Below, one piece after another: positions 4,184-11,477 of a stretch of 39,030 nucleotides of DNA. The first letter of the stretch is position 1. Each line of letters starts with the position of its first letter. The notes beneath the pieces are model-generated. The model did not search any database. It was given only the letters and a program-made list of their open reading frames with translations, and was not told the origin of the DNA. The position numbers and the translations under genes were made by a program. Origin of the DNA: an uncultured Alphaproteobacteria bacterium (lineage in GTDB: Bacteria; Pseudomonadota; Alphaproteobacteria; Micropepsales; Micropepsaceae); assembly GCA_903902075.1 (NCBI GenBank), contig CAIUTH010000079.1, positions 1-39,030 on the forward strand. The letters are read 5' to 3'.

Positions 4184-5785
4184 TTATTCCGCCGCTTCCG
4201 CCAACTCCGGTGCGGCTTGCAGCACGTCCGGGCCGACATGGGCCTCGAACTTCTTGAAGTTGGCCTGGAACATGGAAACCAGCTTGCGGGCCTGGGCGTC
4301 GTAGGCCGCCTTGTCGGTCCAGGTGTCGCGCGGGTTCAGGATGGCGGCATCCACCCCCGGGACCGACACCGGCACCCGGAACTTGAAGTGCGGATCGACC
4401 CGCATCTCCACGGAGGCCAGGCTGCCGTCCAGGGCGGCGTTCAGCAGGGCGCGGGTGGCCTTGATGGGCATGCGGCTGCCGGTGCCGAAGGCCCCGCCGG
4501 TCCAGCCCGTGTTCACCAGCCAGCAATCGGCCTGATGCTCGGCGATCAGGGCCCGCAGCAGGTTGCCGTATTCGGAAGGATGACGCGGCATGAAGGGGGC
4601 GCCGAAGCAGGTGGAGAACGTCGGCTGCGGCTCCTTGCCCAGGCCCTTTTCCGTACCGGCCACCTTGGCGGTGAAGCCGGACAGGAAGTGATACATGGCC
4701 TGGCTGGGGGTCAGCCGGGCGATGGGCGGCAGCACGCCAAAGGCATCGGCCGTCAGCATGATGACATTCTTGGGGTGTCCCGCCCGGCCGGTGGCCGAGG
4801 CGTTGGGGATGTAATCGATCGGATAGGCGGCGCGGGTATTTTCCGCGTAGGTCGCGTCGTTCAGGTCCAGCGTGCGGGTGGCAGGGTCCATCACCACATT
4901 TTCCAGCACCGTGCCGAAGCGTTCGGTGGTCGAGAAAATCTCCGGCTCCGCCTCGCGGCTCAGCTTGATGACCTTGGCATAGCAGCCGCCTTCGATGTTG
5001 AAGATGCCGTTTTCGCTCCAGCCATGCTCGTCATCGCCGATCAGCGTGCGCGACGCATCGGCCGACAGCGTGGTCTTGCCGGTACCGGAAAGCCCGAAAA
5101 AGATCGCCGATTGGCCGTTCGCGCCGACATTGGCGGAGCAGTGCATGCTCATCACCCGTTTGGCCGGCAGCAGGTAGTTCATGATGGTGAAGACCGACTT
5201 CTTCATCTCGCCAGCATAGGAGGTGCCGCCGATCAGGATCACTTTCTTGTCGAAGTTTACCGCGATCACGGTCTGGCTGGCGCAGCCATGACGCGCCGGA
5301 TCGGCATTGAAGCTGGGCAGGTCGATGATGGTGAATTCCGGATCGAAGCTCTTCAGCTCTTCGGCGGTGGGCCGGATCAGAAGCTGGTGCACGAACAGCG
5401 AGTGCCAGGCGAATTCGGTGATCACTCGTACCGAAATGCGATGCGTGAGATCGGCACCGCCGAACAGATCCTTGGCGAACAGCTCGCGCCCTTCGGCATG
5501 GGCCATCATGTCGGCATGGAGCGCATCGAAATGCGCGGGGCTCATCGGCTTGTTGTTGTCCCACCAGACCTGGGATTCGGTGGTGGCGTCGCGCACCACA
5601 AACTTGTCCGATGCCGAGCGTCCGGTATGCACGCCCGTGCGCACCACCAGCGGACCATTCTTGGCAACCATGCCTTCGCCGCGGCGCACCGCTTCTTCGT
5701 ACAAGGCCGGCGCGCTGAGATTGAAGTTCACGCCCTTGAGGTTGCGAAAGCCGTGGCGGGAAAGGCCAAAAGCGGTGTCGGTCAT
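4184..5785 (-). CDS. pckA: Phosphoenolpyruvate carboxykinase (ATP)
   Basis: [14 protein letters not shown]-loop, [25 protein letters not shown]; about 533 aa. Confidence 0.97.
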
Positions 5786-5962
5786 GCTGGCGCTCCGAAA
5801 AGAAAACTGCGCCCGCTATAGCGTCTGGCCCGCGCGCCCTCAAATGTATTCAAACGTTTCAGCACAGAATTTCTATGCCCCTATAAAGTGTTATAAGTAT
5901 TATTTGTAATAACGTCCTGCTATCGCGTTGCTCCTTTGGGCTTTTTGGCCGTAAGAACTTTC

Positions 5963-6736
5963 ATGCTTTCGGACGAGGAATTGGACCGCTATGCCCGCCA
6001 CCTGGTGCTGCGGGAAGTGGGTGGAACAGGCCAGGCCCGCATCCGCGCCGCCAAGGTGCTGATGGTGGGCGCAGGCGGCCTGGGCAGTCCCGTGGCGCTG
6101 TACCTGGCAGCAGCCGGTATCGGGCGGCTGGGCCTGGTGGATGACGATGCCGTCAGCCTGTCGAACCTGCAGCGCCAGATTTTGTTCCGCACCGCCGATG
6201 TCGGGCGCGCCAAGGTCGAAGCCGGGGCTGAGGCGCTGAATGCCCTGAACCCGGGCGTCCGGATCGATTGCCATCACATGCGCGTCACGTCCGCAAATGT
6301 GATGGAATTGATTGCGCCATACGACATCGTCGCCGACGGCTCGGACAATTTCGCCACCCGCTTCCTACTCAATGACGCCTGCTTCCTTGCCGGCAAGCCG
6401 CTGGTGTCGGCGGCCGTGACCGAGTTCGAAGGCCAGCTGGCCACCTACAAGGGCTATGACCCGGCTCTGCCCTGCTATCGCTGCCTGTTCCCGGAGCCGC
6501 CGCCGCCCGGCACGGCGCCCAATTGCTCGGAAACCGGCGTCCTGGGCGCAGCGGCCGGGGTGATGGGATCGCTGCAGGCGCTGGAAGTGTTGAAGGAAGC
6601 CGCCGGGCTGGGCACCGGACTGTTTGGAAAAATCCTGATCTACAAGGCGCTTAGCACAGAATTCCACACCGCCAGGCTGGCCAAGGACCCCGGCTGTGCT
6701 TTGTGCGGCAACAGGCGAACAATTACCGCCCTTTGA
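5963..6736 (+). CDS. MoeB/ThiF/HesA family E1-like adenylyltransferase
   Basis: RYARHLVLREVGGTGQARIRAAKVLMVGAGGLGSPVALYLAAAGIG..., NLQRQ, DNFATR, CYRC and CALC cysteine pairs. Confidence 0.9.
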   Translation: MLSDEELDRYARHLVLREVGGTGQARIRAAKVLMVGAGGLGSPVALYLAAAGIGRLGLVDDDAVSLSNLQRQILFRTADVGRAKVEAGAEALNALNPGVRIDCHHMRVTSANVMELIAPYDIVADGSDNFATRFLLNDACFLAGKPLVSAAVTEFEGQLATYKGYDPALPCYRCLFPEPPPPGTAPNCSETGVLGAAAGVMGSLQALEVLKEAAGLGTGLFGKILIYKALSTEFHTARLAKDPGCALCGNRRTITAL

Positions 6737-6744
6737 TGTCACGG

Positions 6745-6759
6745 TTAACCGCCGTTTAA
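6745..6759 (+). promoter_or_regulatory. CtrA-type binding site TTAA-N7-TTAA
   Basis: TTAACCGCCGTTTAA in the 47-bp gap before the 574-aa ORF; exact match to the CtrA full-site consensus. Confidence 0.6.
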
Positions 6760-6783
6760 AGCGGACTGCGGCAACATCAGGGA

Positions 6784-8508
6784 ATGGGCCGAGAAATCCA
6801 CTACGAGATCTTCAAACGCGTCGGAGCCAAGGGCGGCTGGACGATGCATGACGTGCGCAATGACCGCGATAGCGCGATCACCATCGCGCAGGAATTGATG
6901 GCAGCCGAGAAGGCCACCGGCGTGAAAGTCGTCAAGGAAACCTACAACGACGACACGGGCGATTTCCTCACCCTCAAGATTTTCGAGGATGGCCACAACC
7001 AGATGAAGGTCGCGCCGGCGCAGGAAGATGCGCCGCACGCCATTCCCTGCTTCAAGCCCGAAGACCTCTATTCCTATCACGCCCGCCAGACCATGGGTCG
7101 GCTGCTGACCGACTTCCTGTCGCGCGGCAAGGTCACCATCACCGAGCTGATCCACCGCGCCGACATGCTGGAAAAGCTGGAAGCCACCGGCACTGTCTAT
7201 CAGCATGCCATTCAGAAAGTTGCGGTGGCGCAGGCCGCCAACACCACCACCCCGGTTCAGCAGATCGTCAAGAGCCTGAACGAACTCACCACCCAGGCCT
7301 TCAACCGCGTCTATCGCGATCAGCGCAAGGGACTGTTCCCCGATCCGGCGCCGGAGCAATTTGCCGAACTGGCGGCCAAGCTGGCCGGCCAGGGCGATGC
7401 CGCCTACATCTTCAACGGCGCGCTGGCGCGGCATCTGAAGGATGCCAAGGGCTGGGACCACAAGGTCCTGATGCTGATCACCGTCATGGAAAAGCCGCCC
7501 GCCGAGGAGGCGCCGCGCAAGCTGCTGCTATCCTCGATCGACGCCATCCTGGCGGAAATTCTCAACGGCTCGGCGGCCCTGCAGGACCTGATGGGTCCGG
7601 CGGAAAATCTGGGCCAGGCGCCGAACCAGCTGGTGAACCTGTTCCTGGGCAAACTGCCCGAAGGCAGCAAGGCGGGCCTGGCCGCCCTGACACACCATTT
7701 CGCCGCTGATGATCTGCCCGAAGCGCGCACAGCGGTGGCCAACCGCATCGTGGCGGAGTTCAAGAGCAACAAGCGGCTGTGCCCCGAATTCATGGTCGAG
7801 GAACTGAAGACCTTGCGTTCCATGGCCAACCGCATCGTGATGGGCGTGGGCAAGTATCTGTCCCACGAAGACCTGATCGCCGCCTTCACACTGCGCTCCA
7901 AGCGCCTGGTGGCGAATGAAGCGATGGGCCAGCATATCGCCGAGGCCCCGATCGAGGAAAAGATCGAGCGCATCCTGTTCGTCGAGGACAATATCATCGG
8001 CGCCGAAAACAAGCGCCAGTTGTCCACCTACATCATGCCGGTGCTGAACTCCGCGGCGTTCGAGAATTATTTCCAGAACCCCAAACTGCCGCTGGTGCAG
8101 CGGTTGCAGCGCCTGGCCCAATTGCAGGCGCGCGTGCGCCGCTCGGGCTTCATCGAAGTCACCCGCGAGGAAATCGCGGTCAAGATGGACGCGCTGGCGG
8201 TGCAGATGGAAGCACGCGGCAGGCTGTTCGAATCCATCGAGGCGCGCAGCACCAATCCGGTGGAAAAGGCCCAGACCCTGCTGAAGCTGGCGACGGGCGG
8301 CCTGCTGACCGAAGGCCAGCTGTCCAACAGGGCGCGCGAATTGATCCTGGGCTATATGTCCAAGCCCGGCTTCCTGACCGGCTATATGGCGGCCCAGAGC
8401 AAGCACGGCGCCGCCCCCGACAGCGAAAAGCTGATGGCCGAGCTGATGGAAACCCTGGGCAAGGCGGGCATCACGGCTGAGACAGGCCTTAAGAGTATCG
8501 CCGCCTAA
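6784..8508 (+). CDS. Uncharacterised conserved-looking cytoplasmic protein (574 aa)
   Basis: Long ORF with good coding character, largely helical composition, no motif recognised. Confidence 0.85.
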   Translation: MGREIHYEIFKRVGAKGGWTMHDVRNDRDSAITIAQELMAAEKATGVKVVKETYNDDTGDFLTLKIFEDGHNQMKVAPAQEDAPHAIPCFKPEDLYSYHARQTMGRLLTDFLSRGKVTITELIHRADMLEKLEATGTVYQHAIQKVAVAQAANTTTPVQQIVKSLNELTTQAFNRVYRDQRKGLFPDPAPEQFAELAAKLAGQGDAAYIFNGALARHLKDAKGWDHKVLMLITVMEKPPAEEAPRKLLLSSIDAILAEILNGSAALQDLMGPAENLGQAPNQLVNLFLGKLPEGSKAGLAALTHHFAADDLPEARTAVANRIVAEFKSNKRLCPEFMVEELKTLRSMANRIVMGVGKYLSHEDLIAAFTLRSKRLVANEAMGQHIAEAPIEEKIERILFVEDNIIGAENKRQLSTYIMPVLNSAAFENYFQNPKLPLVQRLQRLAQLQARVRRSGFIEVTREEIAVKMDALAVQMEARGRLFESIEARSTNPVEKAQTLLKLATGGLLTEGQLSNRARELILGYMSKPGFLTGYMAAQSKHGAAPDSEKLMAELMETLGKAGITAETGLKSIAA

Positions 8509-8515
8509 CACTCAC

Positions 8516-8597
8516 CATGGGCGGGCTTGACCCGCCCATCCAGAGCGACGGACACCAGCGCTTGTGACTCTGGATGGCCGGCTCAAGGCCGGCCATG
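8516..8597. repeat. Dispersed double-hairpin palindromic repeat, copy 1
   Basis: CATGGGCGGGCTTGACCCGCCCATCCAGAG...CTCTGGATGGCCGGCTCAAGGCCGGCCATG; related element at 26853-26937. Confidence 0.85.
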
Positions 8598-8606
8598 GAG
8601 AAATGG

Positions 8607-11477
8607 CTAATGCGCCGCATCCCAGTTATCCGCCGCGCGGGCTTCGACAACCAGCGGCACGGAAATCTCCGCCGCGGGCAGCGCCGCCTTTTCCATCACC
8701 GACTTGATCAGCTTGGCGGCCTTGTCCACTTCCTTGTCCGGCGCTTCGAAGATCAGTTCGTCATGCACCTGCAGCAGCATGGTGGCCTTGACCTTGGCGT
8801 CCACCAGCGCGCCGGGCAGCTGGACCATGGCGCGGCGGATGACGTCGGCGGCCGTGCCCTGGATGGGGGCATTGATGGCGGCGCGTTCGGCCCCGCCGCG
8901 GAAGCCCGGCACCTTGGAATTGATCTCGCGGATATGGATGCGCCGGCCGAACAGGGTTTCGACGTAACCCGTTTCGCGCGCAAACTGCTTGGTCTGTTCC
9001 ATGTAGTCGCGGATGCCGGGGAAGCGGGCGAAGTATTTCTTGATGTAGTCTGACGCTTCGCTTTGCGGGATACCCAGCTGGTTGGCCAGGCCGAAGCCGG
9101 AAATGCCGTAAACGATGCCGAAATTAATCGCCTTGGCGCGGCGGCGGATTTCGGCCGGCATGTCCTTGACCGGCACGCCAAAAATTTCCGACGCCGTCAT
9201 GGCGTGAATATCCAGGTTTTCGGCGAAAGCCTTTTTCAATTCGGGAATGTCGGCGATATGGGCAAGGAGCCGCAGCTCGATCTGGCTGTAGTCGGCGCTG
9301 ATCAGCTTGTGGCCCTTGGCGGCGATGAAGGCCTGGCGGATGCGGCGGCCTTCCTCGGTGCGCACCGGAATGTTCTGCAAATTGGGATCGGTGGAGGCCA
9401 GCCGCCCGGTGGAGGTGGACGCCATGGCGTATGAGGTGTGCACCCGCCCCGTCCTGGCGTTGATATAGCCCGGCAAGGCGTCGGTGTAAGTGCCGCGCAG
9501 CTTGGCCAGGCCGCGCCATTCCAGCACTTTCTTGGCGATGGGATGGCCCTGCGCTGCCACATCTTCCAGCACATCGCTGTCGGTGGACCAGGCGCCGGTC
9601 TTGGTCTTGCGGCCGCCTTCGATCTTCATGCGGTCGAACAGGATTTCGCCCAGCTGCTTGGGCGAGCCGATGTTGAACTCCCCATCCGCCAGCTTGTGGA
9701 TTTCGCCTTCCAGCTTGACCTGGGTCTTCGCGAAATCGTTGGACAGCTTGCGCAGCATGTCCGGATCGATGGTGATGCCCGCCCGCTCCATGTCGGCCAG
9801 CACCATCACCAGTGGCCGCTCCAGCGTTTCATAGACACAGCGCTTGGATTTTTCGCGCAGCTGAGGCCGCAGCAGCATGTGCAGGCGCAGGGTGACATCG
9901 GCATCCTCGGCGGCATATTTGGTCGCTTCGGCCACCGGTACACAGTCGAAGGTGATCTTGTCCTTGCCCTTGCCGGTCACTTCACTGAACGTGATGGGCG
10001 TGTGCGACAGATGCAGCTGGGAAAGCTCGTCCATGCCATGGCCGTGCAGCCCGCCTTCCAGGACATACGAGATCAGCATCGTGTCATCGATGGGATCGAG
10101 ACGAATGCCGCGCTGCAGGAACATCAGCGCGTCATATTTCAGGTTCTGCCCCACCTTCAGCACGCTGTCGTCTTCCAGCAGGGGCCTCAGGATTTTCAGC
10201 ACATCGGCTTCGGCCATCTGGGTGATGGCATCGCCGCCATCCTGTGCCTGGGACAGGTCCAGCGACAGCCCGTTACCCTTGCGATGGCCGCAGGGAACGT
10301 AGCAAGCCTCGCCCGGCGCAACCGCAAGACTCACGCCGCACAGATTGGCGGTCATGGCGTCGAGCGAGGTGGTTTCGGTATCGACGCAGACAATTCCGGT
10401 GGCATGGGCGCGGGCCACCCACTGTTCCAGATCCTTCGCGCTCGTCACCGTGACGTAGGCATCGTGATTGATCGGGGCGTGCAGCGCAGCGTCCACCGCC
10501 GGCGTGGCGGGCGCAGACAAATCGGGGTGGTGCGGGATGACATTGGCGACCGTGGCCGCCGGTGCGATGCCGTCCAGGTCTTCCACCTGGTAATGCGCCG
10601 CCACCCGCTTGGTGATGGAGGTGAATTCCATAGCTTTCAGAAAAGACAGCAGCTCCTTGCAGTCCGGCTCATGCACGGCGAATGCATCGGGCTGTTCCGT
10701 CAGCGGAACGTTCTGATCCAGGGTCACCAGCTTCAGCGAAATGCGCGCATTCTCGGCATTTTCGATCAATGTCTCGCGGCGCTTGTTCTGCTTGATTTCG
10801 CTTGTCTTGCTGAGCAGCGTTTCAATATCGCCATAGATGTTGATCAGCTCGGCGGCGGTCTTGATGCCGATGCCGCGCACACCGGGGACATTGTCGGTGG
10901 AATCGCCGGCCAGCGCCTGGACCTGCACCACCTTGTCCGGGGTGACGCCGAACTTCTCCAGCACCTCGGCGCTCGCCAGCCGCCGGTTCTTCATGGTGTC
11001 CAGAAGTTCGATCTTGCCGTCCACCACCAGCTGCATCAGGTCCTTGTCGGAGGAGATGATGGTGCAGCGGGCGCCGGCCTCGTGCGCCAGGCGCGCATAG
11101 GTGGCGATCAGATCGTCGGCCTCAAAGCCCTTCATCTCCACGCAACTGACGCCGAAAGCGCGGGTGGCATCGCGCACCAGCGGGAATTGCGGGATCAGGT
11201 CTTCGGGCGGCGGCGGACGGTGCGCCTTGTATTCCTTGTAGAGATCGTTGCGGAAGGTCTTCTCGCTGGCATCGAACACCACCGCCAGATGGGTGGGCTG
11301 TTCGGGGCCCTTCATGTCCTCCAGCAGCTTCCACAGCATGTTGCAGTAGCCGGACACCGCGCCCACCGGCAGGCCATCGGACTTGCGGGTCAGCGGGGGA
11401 AGCGCGTGATAGGCGCGGAACAGATAGCCCGAACCGTCCACCAGGTAGAGGTGATCACCCTTTTTCAGGGCGCTCAA
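8607..11477 (-). CDS. polA: DNA polymerase I, three-domain form
   Basis: 5'-3' exonuclease domain, 3'-5' exonuclease DTET motif, polymerase motifs (SADYSQIELRLLAH, RRAKAINFGIVYGISGFGLA, LLQVHDELIFE); TTG start. Confidence 0.97.
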   Translation of the reverse strand: MSALKKGDHLYLVDGSGYLFRAYHALPPLTRKSDGLPVGAVSGYCNMLWKLLEDMKGPEQPTHLAVVFDASEKTFRNDLYKEYKAHRPPPPEDLIPQFPLVRDATRAFGVSCVEMKGFEADDLIATYARLAHEAGARCTIISSDKDLMQLVVDGKIELLDTMKNRRLASAEVLEKFGVTPDKVVQVQALAGDSTDNVPGVRGIGIKTAAELINIYGDIETLLSKTSEIKQNKRRETLIENAENARISLKLVTLDQNVPLTEQPDAFAVHEPDCKELLSFLKAMEFTSITKRVAAHYQVEDLDGIAPAATVANVIPHHPDLSAPATPAVDAALHAPINHDAYVTVTSAKDLEQWVARAHATGIVCVDTETTSLDAMTANLCGVSLAVAPGEACYVPCGHRKGNGLSLDLSQAQDGGDAITQMAEADVLKILRPLLEDDSVLKVGQNLKYDALMFLQRGIRLDPIDDTMLISYVLEGGLHGHGMDELSQLHLSHTPITFSEVTGKGKDKITFDCVPVAEATKYAAEDADVTLRLHMLLRPQLREKSKRCVYETLERPLVMVLADMERAGITIDPDMLRKLSNDFAKTQVKLEGEIHKLADGEFNIGSPKQLGEILFDRMKIEGGRKTKTGAWSTDSDVLEDVAAQGHPIAKKVLEWRGLAKLRGTYTDALPGYINARTGRVHTSYAMASTSTGRLASTDPNLQNIPVRTEEGRRIRQAFIAAKGHKLISADYSQIELRLLAHIADIPELKKAFAENLDIHAMTASEIFGVPVKDMPAEIRRRAKAINFGIVYGISGFGLANQLGIPQSEASDYIKKYFARFPGIRDYMEQTKQFARETGYVETLFGRRIHIREINSKVPGFRGGAERAAINAPIQGTAADVIRRAMVQLPGALVDAKVKATMLLQVHDELIFEAPDKEVDKAAKLIKSVMEKAALPAAEISVPLVVEARAADNWDAAH

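Follow-up and report, generated by a model that had tools for sequence, protein, structure and literature searches.

CtrA-activated promoters have been described in Caulobacter, where P2 of ctrA carries a full site at -39 (PMC4287350), and in R. sphaeroides, where 5' RACE of the fla2 promoters placed the start 23-24 nt after the box end with an invariant A at -11 (PMC6180460). The genes known as CtrA targets elsewhere include chpT, flagellar operons and genes for DUF2336 proteins, EAL proteins and histidine kinases (PMC4287350, PMC6180460). The predicted promoter described here was identified in a window of 39,030 nucleotides from an uncultured member of the Micropepsaceae (Alphaproteobacteria). 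It shares with Caulobacter ctrA P2 and the R. sphaeroides fla2 promoters the full TTAA-N7-TTAA at about -39, the A at -11 and a distance of 23-24 nt between the end of the box and the start, here a predicted one, and it differs from them in being predicted from sequence and as leaderless.

For the protein under this promoter two comparisons are available. One DUF2336 protein of the same genome, likewise of unknown function, is encoded behind an exact CtrA box, but the window protein has no sequence match to PF10098. The fliL-fliM-DUF6468-motE-cheZ operon of one alphaproteobacterial family includes distant homologs with the same two domains, whereas the window protein adjoins polA and is only distantly related to them. 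Nothing was found in the literature on the family of the window protein, nor any paper on DUF6468. The predicted regulation by CtrA is of a known kind, and the protein family was not found described.

The CtrA box and the predicted promoter

The gene (6784..8508, + strand) encodes a 574-aa protein of an alphaproteobacterial family, as delimited by its ORF and by ortholog searches, and is separated by 47 bp from a preceding ThiF/MoeB-family ORF (5936-6736). This gap holds TTAACCGCCGTTTAA (6745-6759, + strand; TTAACC-GCCGT-TTAA), an exact match to TTAA-N7-TTAA which ends 24 bp before the ATG at 6784 and is the predicted activator site, from -39 to -25. The original prediction had reported the box, its gap and its distance to the ATG, and was correct in all of these details. 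The pattern is unique to this position across the 39-kb window, where shuffled sequences lead to an expectation of 0.01. Counted over the 2.68-Mb draft genome, exact sites number 12 and those of a reversed-pattern control 11; there is no enrichment, and the case for a CtrA box therefore rests on conservation and position.

Conservation upstream of orthologs, which had been named as a check on the original prediction, was found in the own family and, in degenerate form, in other families. Family orthologs were identified in 38 of 60 genomes, together with 14 GTDB contigs; 26 of the 37 non-redundant ones present the exact box within the last 200 bp upstream and most of the remaining upstream regions have it with one mismatch. 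The exact box is absent from the 206 kb of remaining flanking and coding sequence of the same ortholog loci. Across the family the N7 spacer is variable, whereas both TTAA halves are kept, as is the CC that follows the first of them. In other families, the homologs in L092, L094-L097, L099 and L100 have TT[TC]AC or TCAACC as left half, with the right half intact, at -39 to -85, and most members of one further family have GAAACC-N5-CTTAA, TAAACCGGCTCTTAA or the exact site. Of the homolog genes, 16/37 are preceded by a box with at most one mismatch and 4/37 by an exact one; among control genes from the neighbourhood the figures are 29/493 and 3/493. In L092 and L094 the box is kept although the upstream gene is pckA and not thiF, which means that it is not explained by constraint on a coding sequence.

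The -10 element was found by aligning 35 upstream regions of the family on the box. A conserved block lies 3' of the box, with A at +28 (0.78), A at +30 (0.59) and T at +32 (0.67) counted from the box start, and its conserved A/T positions correspond to A-11 and T-7 of a -10 element. In the window this is the predicted sigma-70 element CAACAT (6772..6777, + strand; +27..+32 from the box start, A at -11 and T at -7). From the conserved -10 and its spacing the start is predicted 39 nt after the box start and 24 nt after the box end, at 6784 (+ strand), which is the A of the ATG. The mRNA of the window gene is thus predicted to be leaderless, with its start on or next to the ATG, and orthologs with the box 51-77 bp away would have a short leader. 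The -10 spacing of the window gene is not common to all the other exact boxes of the same genome.

The regulator and its other sites in the genome

The same genome encodes ctrA (G000:C160:2694-3374), as the original prediction needed it to. The product is 80% identical over 225 aa to Caulobacter CtrA and nearly identical to it in the DNA-binding half. Further exact boxes precede chpT, a fliP-holding operon (two sites) and genes for DUF2336, EAL and histidine-kinase proteins, all of them of the gene kinds listed above. ChpT is the CtrA phosphotransferase. Its box (L018 1501-1515; G000:C114:2054-2068) is located between chpT and a divergent CysQ-like gene, which suggests that in this lineage CtrA feeds back on its own phosphorelay. 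The two exact boxes upstream of fliP (L020/L021; G000:C163:7341-7407) are 52 bp apart and probably precede the start of fliO (MEFIDLL).

The conservation of the box, the presence of ctrA and the conserved -10 at the spacing of CtrA promoters support the claim that the 574-aa gene is CtrA-regulated, and a CtrA-activated promoter is, on these grounds, predicted with near certainty. Phosphorylated CtrA would bind TTAA-N7-TTAA over the -35 region and recruit RNA polymerase to the -10 element, the two forming the gene's own sigma-70 promoter, and transcription would begin at the ATG or beside it. Because of this promoter of its own, the gene would be made together with the CtrA regulon, by analogy with Caulobacter in late-predivisional or swarmer-type cells.

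The protein and its family

Two domains were delimited in the 574-aa protein. The N-terminal domain (residues 1-70; 6784..6993, + strand) has a beta-beta-alpha-beta-beta order and the motif H-Y/F-E-V/I ... W ... A ... A ... V-K/R-V, and the second domain (residues 88-574; 7045..8505, + strand) is all-helical and opens with a conserved PCFKPxDLYSYHAR. The AlphaFold2 model built from 34 orthologs (pLDDT 85; 87 for the N domain modelled alone) places strands at residues 3-12 and 19-25, a helix at 28-40 and strands at 46-55 and 61-69, followed by some 30 helices that span residues 92 to 573, the helical part comprising about 480 residues. It agrees with the small N-terminal alpha/beta part and long helical part that had been read from the sequence alone. 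No match was identified in Pfam, NCBIfam or PHROG, in line with the earlier remark that the protein has no recognisable motif, and the distant homologs that were scanned have no Pfam or NCBIfam match either. Foldseek against the PDB gave nothing significant for the whole model (best E 2e-3, TM below 0.2) or for the N domain (best E 2e-2); weak matches resembling the RuBisCO small subunit and HEAT/TPR proteins were set aside as non-significant, and those of a sequence search of the PDB were chance only. The product is proposed to be soluble, its small alpha/beta domain serving for docking and being joined to a long scaffold that resembles an alpha-solenoid.

Homologs were identified in 66 of 240 Alphaproteobacteria genomes and, in a phylum-wide sample, in 17 of 349 genomes, all of them Alphaproteobacteria. 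The plasmid collection contains two, unannotated or named 'hypothetical', in Niveispirillum and Azospirillum. The helical domain also occurs without the N-terminal one. The N domain alone forms proteins of 138-149 aa with a C-terminal transmembrane helix (tail-anchored) and without Pfam model, sometimes in two nearby copies (L145 8013-8453, L146 8277-8723, L147 7943-8392, and L148 7850-8275 and 8908-9324). One contig (L135, from G151) holds two near-tandem distant paralogs (4406-5815 and 7447-8859) with one ORF between them; each is preceded by a separate CtrA box, at -64 in one case and -66 in the other, and fliP is located on the same contig.

Genomic neighbours, flagella and function

Orthologs of the window type adjoin polA, and often pckA, across several families, thiF being another neighbour, and in the window polA is convergent to the 574-aa gene. 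The window gene and these polA-linked orthologs lie outside flagellar and chemotaxis clusters. Other members of the family are located within such clusters. In three genomes (G244, G297 and G301) a full-length homolog is found between motE and cheZ in the order fliL-fliM-DUF6468-motE-[homolog]-cheZ, with motB as the next gene in G244 and G301, and in two more genera (G306 and G308) the homolog adjoins fliM or motE. Elsewhere it lies beside flgH-flgA-flgG (G093), beside flgD and flgI (G232, Niveispirillum cyanobacteriorum) and beside cheA-cheW-cheR-cheB (G235). In a tree of 58 members the homologs in flagellar context do not form a single branch and lie outside the polA-linked clade, and the flagellar-operon members, on a separate branch, are only distantly related to the window protein.

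Across the class, the presence of a homolog also tends to go with that of fliP. Among Alphaproteobacteria fliP is present in 62 of the 66 homolog-bearing genomes versus 89 of the 174 others (p = 7e-11, uncorrected for phylogeny and with weak N-domain-only matches counted), and among genomes of at least 2.4 Mb in 60/64 versus 36/63 (p = 1e-6, also phylogeny-uncorrected). In the class sample, strong full-length homologs occur in 19 genomes that reach 2.4 Mb or more, and each of these has fliP. Within the genus of the window organism there are exceptions in both directions: both fliP and flgI are missing from G023 and G043, although these two retain the gene with its box, and three flagellated genomes (G027, G038 and G044) have no copy of the gene. 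In this genus, therefore, the protein is no essential component of the flagellum. In G023 the ATG of the ortholog is disrupted and the rest of the frame is open (L038), which possibly reflects early decay or an assembly error. The motility link of the original prediction is supported by the distant homologs in flagellar operons and by the co-occurrence with fliP, and it does not hold as a strict rule.

Of the possible functions, these comparisons best support an accessory role in flagella or chemotaxis, which is likely. The reading preferred here, to which a probability of roughly 0.6 is given, joins the CtrA-activated promoter with a protein that would most likely act in the cytoplasm as an accessory to the flagellar motor or the chemotaxis machinery, at the switch, the stator or the pole. 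Both the binding and activation by CtrA and the flagellar role of the window protein itself are what we infer from the data above, and the partner of the protein and its biochemical act are guesses. A narrower version, in which the protein would be an Alphaproteobacteria-specific motor component or regulator (switch or stator) composed of docking domain and helical scaffold and timed by CtrA through its leaderless promoter, is put forward only tentatively.

The gene could also be a true member of the CtrA regulon whose product works in a different process timed by CtrA, such as one of the cell pole, division, the envelope or signalling, the flagellar-operon members being specialised paralogs. 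The linkage of window-type orthologs to polA and not to flagellar genes, their well-supported branch of their own and the exceptions within the genus (two members keeping gene and box without fliP and flgI, three flagellated ones missing the gene) all speak for it. It is nevertheless considered somewhat unlikely, given that in the class sample strong full-length homologs in genomes of at least 2.4 Mb are always accompanied by fliP, that the non-flagellated G023 has lost the start codon, as decay would predict, and that flagellar or chemotaxis neighbours are found on several branches. A role in DNA replication or repair is suggested by polA, a long-standing neighbour that adjoins the gene in the window as well as in several other families; however, polA is convergent in the window, the 574-aa gene is preceded by a conserved promoter of its own, the neighbours differ for homologs in other families and no nucleic-acid domain was found by profile and Foldseek searches, which makes such a role very improbable. 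Still less credible is that the box arose by chance or serves a different regulator. The lack of genome-wide enrichment would fit this explanation, but many diverged orthologs keep the box, with the -10 at a fixed distance from it, and the CtrA of the genome has a nearly identical DNA-binding half.

Under the preferred reading, an accessory factor of flagella or chemotaxis under CtrA control, the CtrA network of this largely uncultured lineage of Alphaproteobacteria would gain a conserved gene, whose promoter footprint is sharp enough for the start site to be predicted. The family, which has no domain model and adjoins fliM, motE and cheZ in some lineages, could then be a part so far missing from the picture of the alphaproteobacterial flagellum or its control.

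Two further features were observed around polA. Between the end of the convergent 574-aa gene and polA (8517-8605) the window contains two G+C-rich inverted repeats, ATGGGCGGG...CCCGCCCAT and ATGGCCGG...CCGGCCAT, which appear terminator- or REP-like as seen by eye only. In other families (L093, L094 and L098) a ChvI/ChvG-like two-component pair is located in the same neighbourhood, accompanied in some of them by HprK-like and PTS-like genes with pckA, all named by eye from their N-termini; this neighbourhood is possibly a conserved carbon-regulation cluster next to polA.
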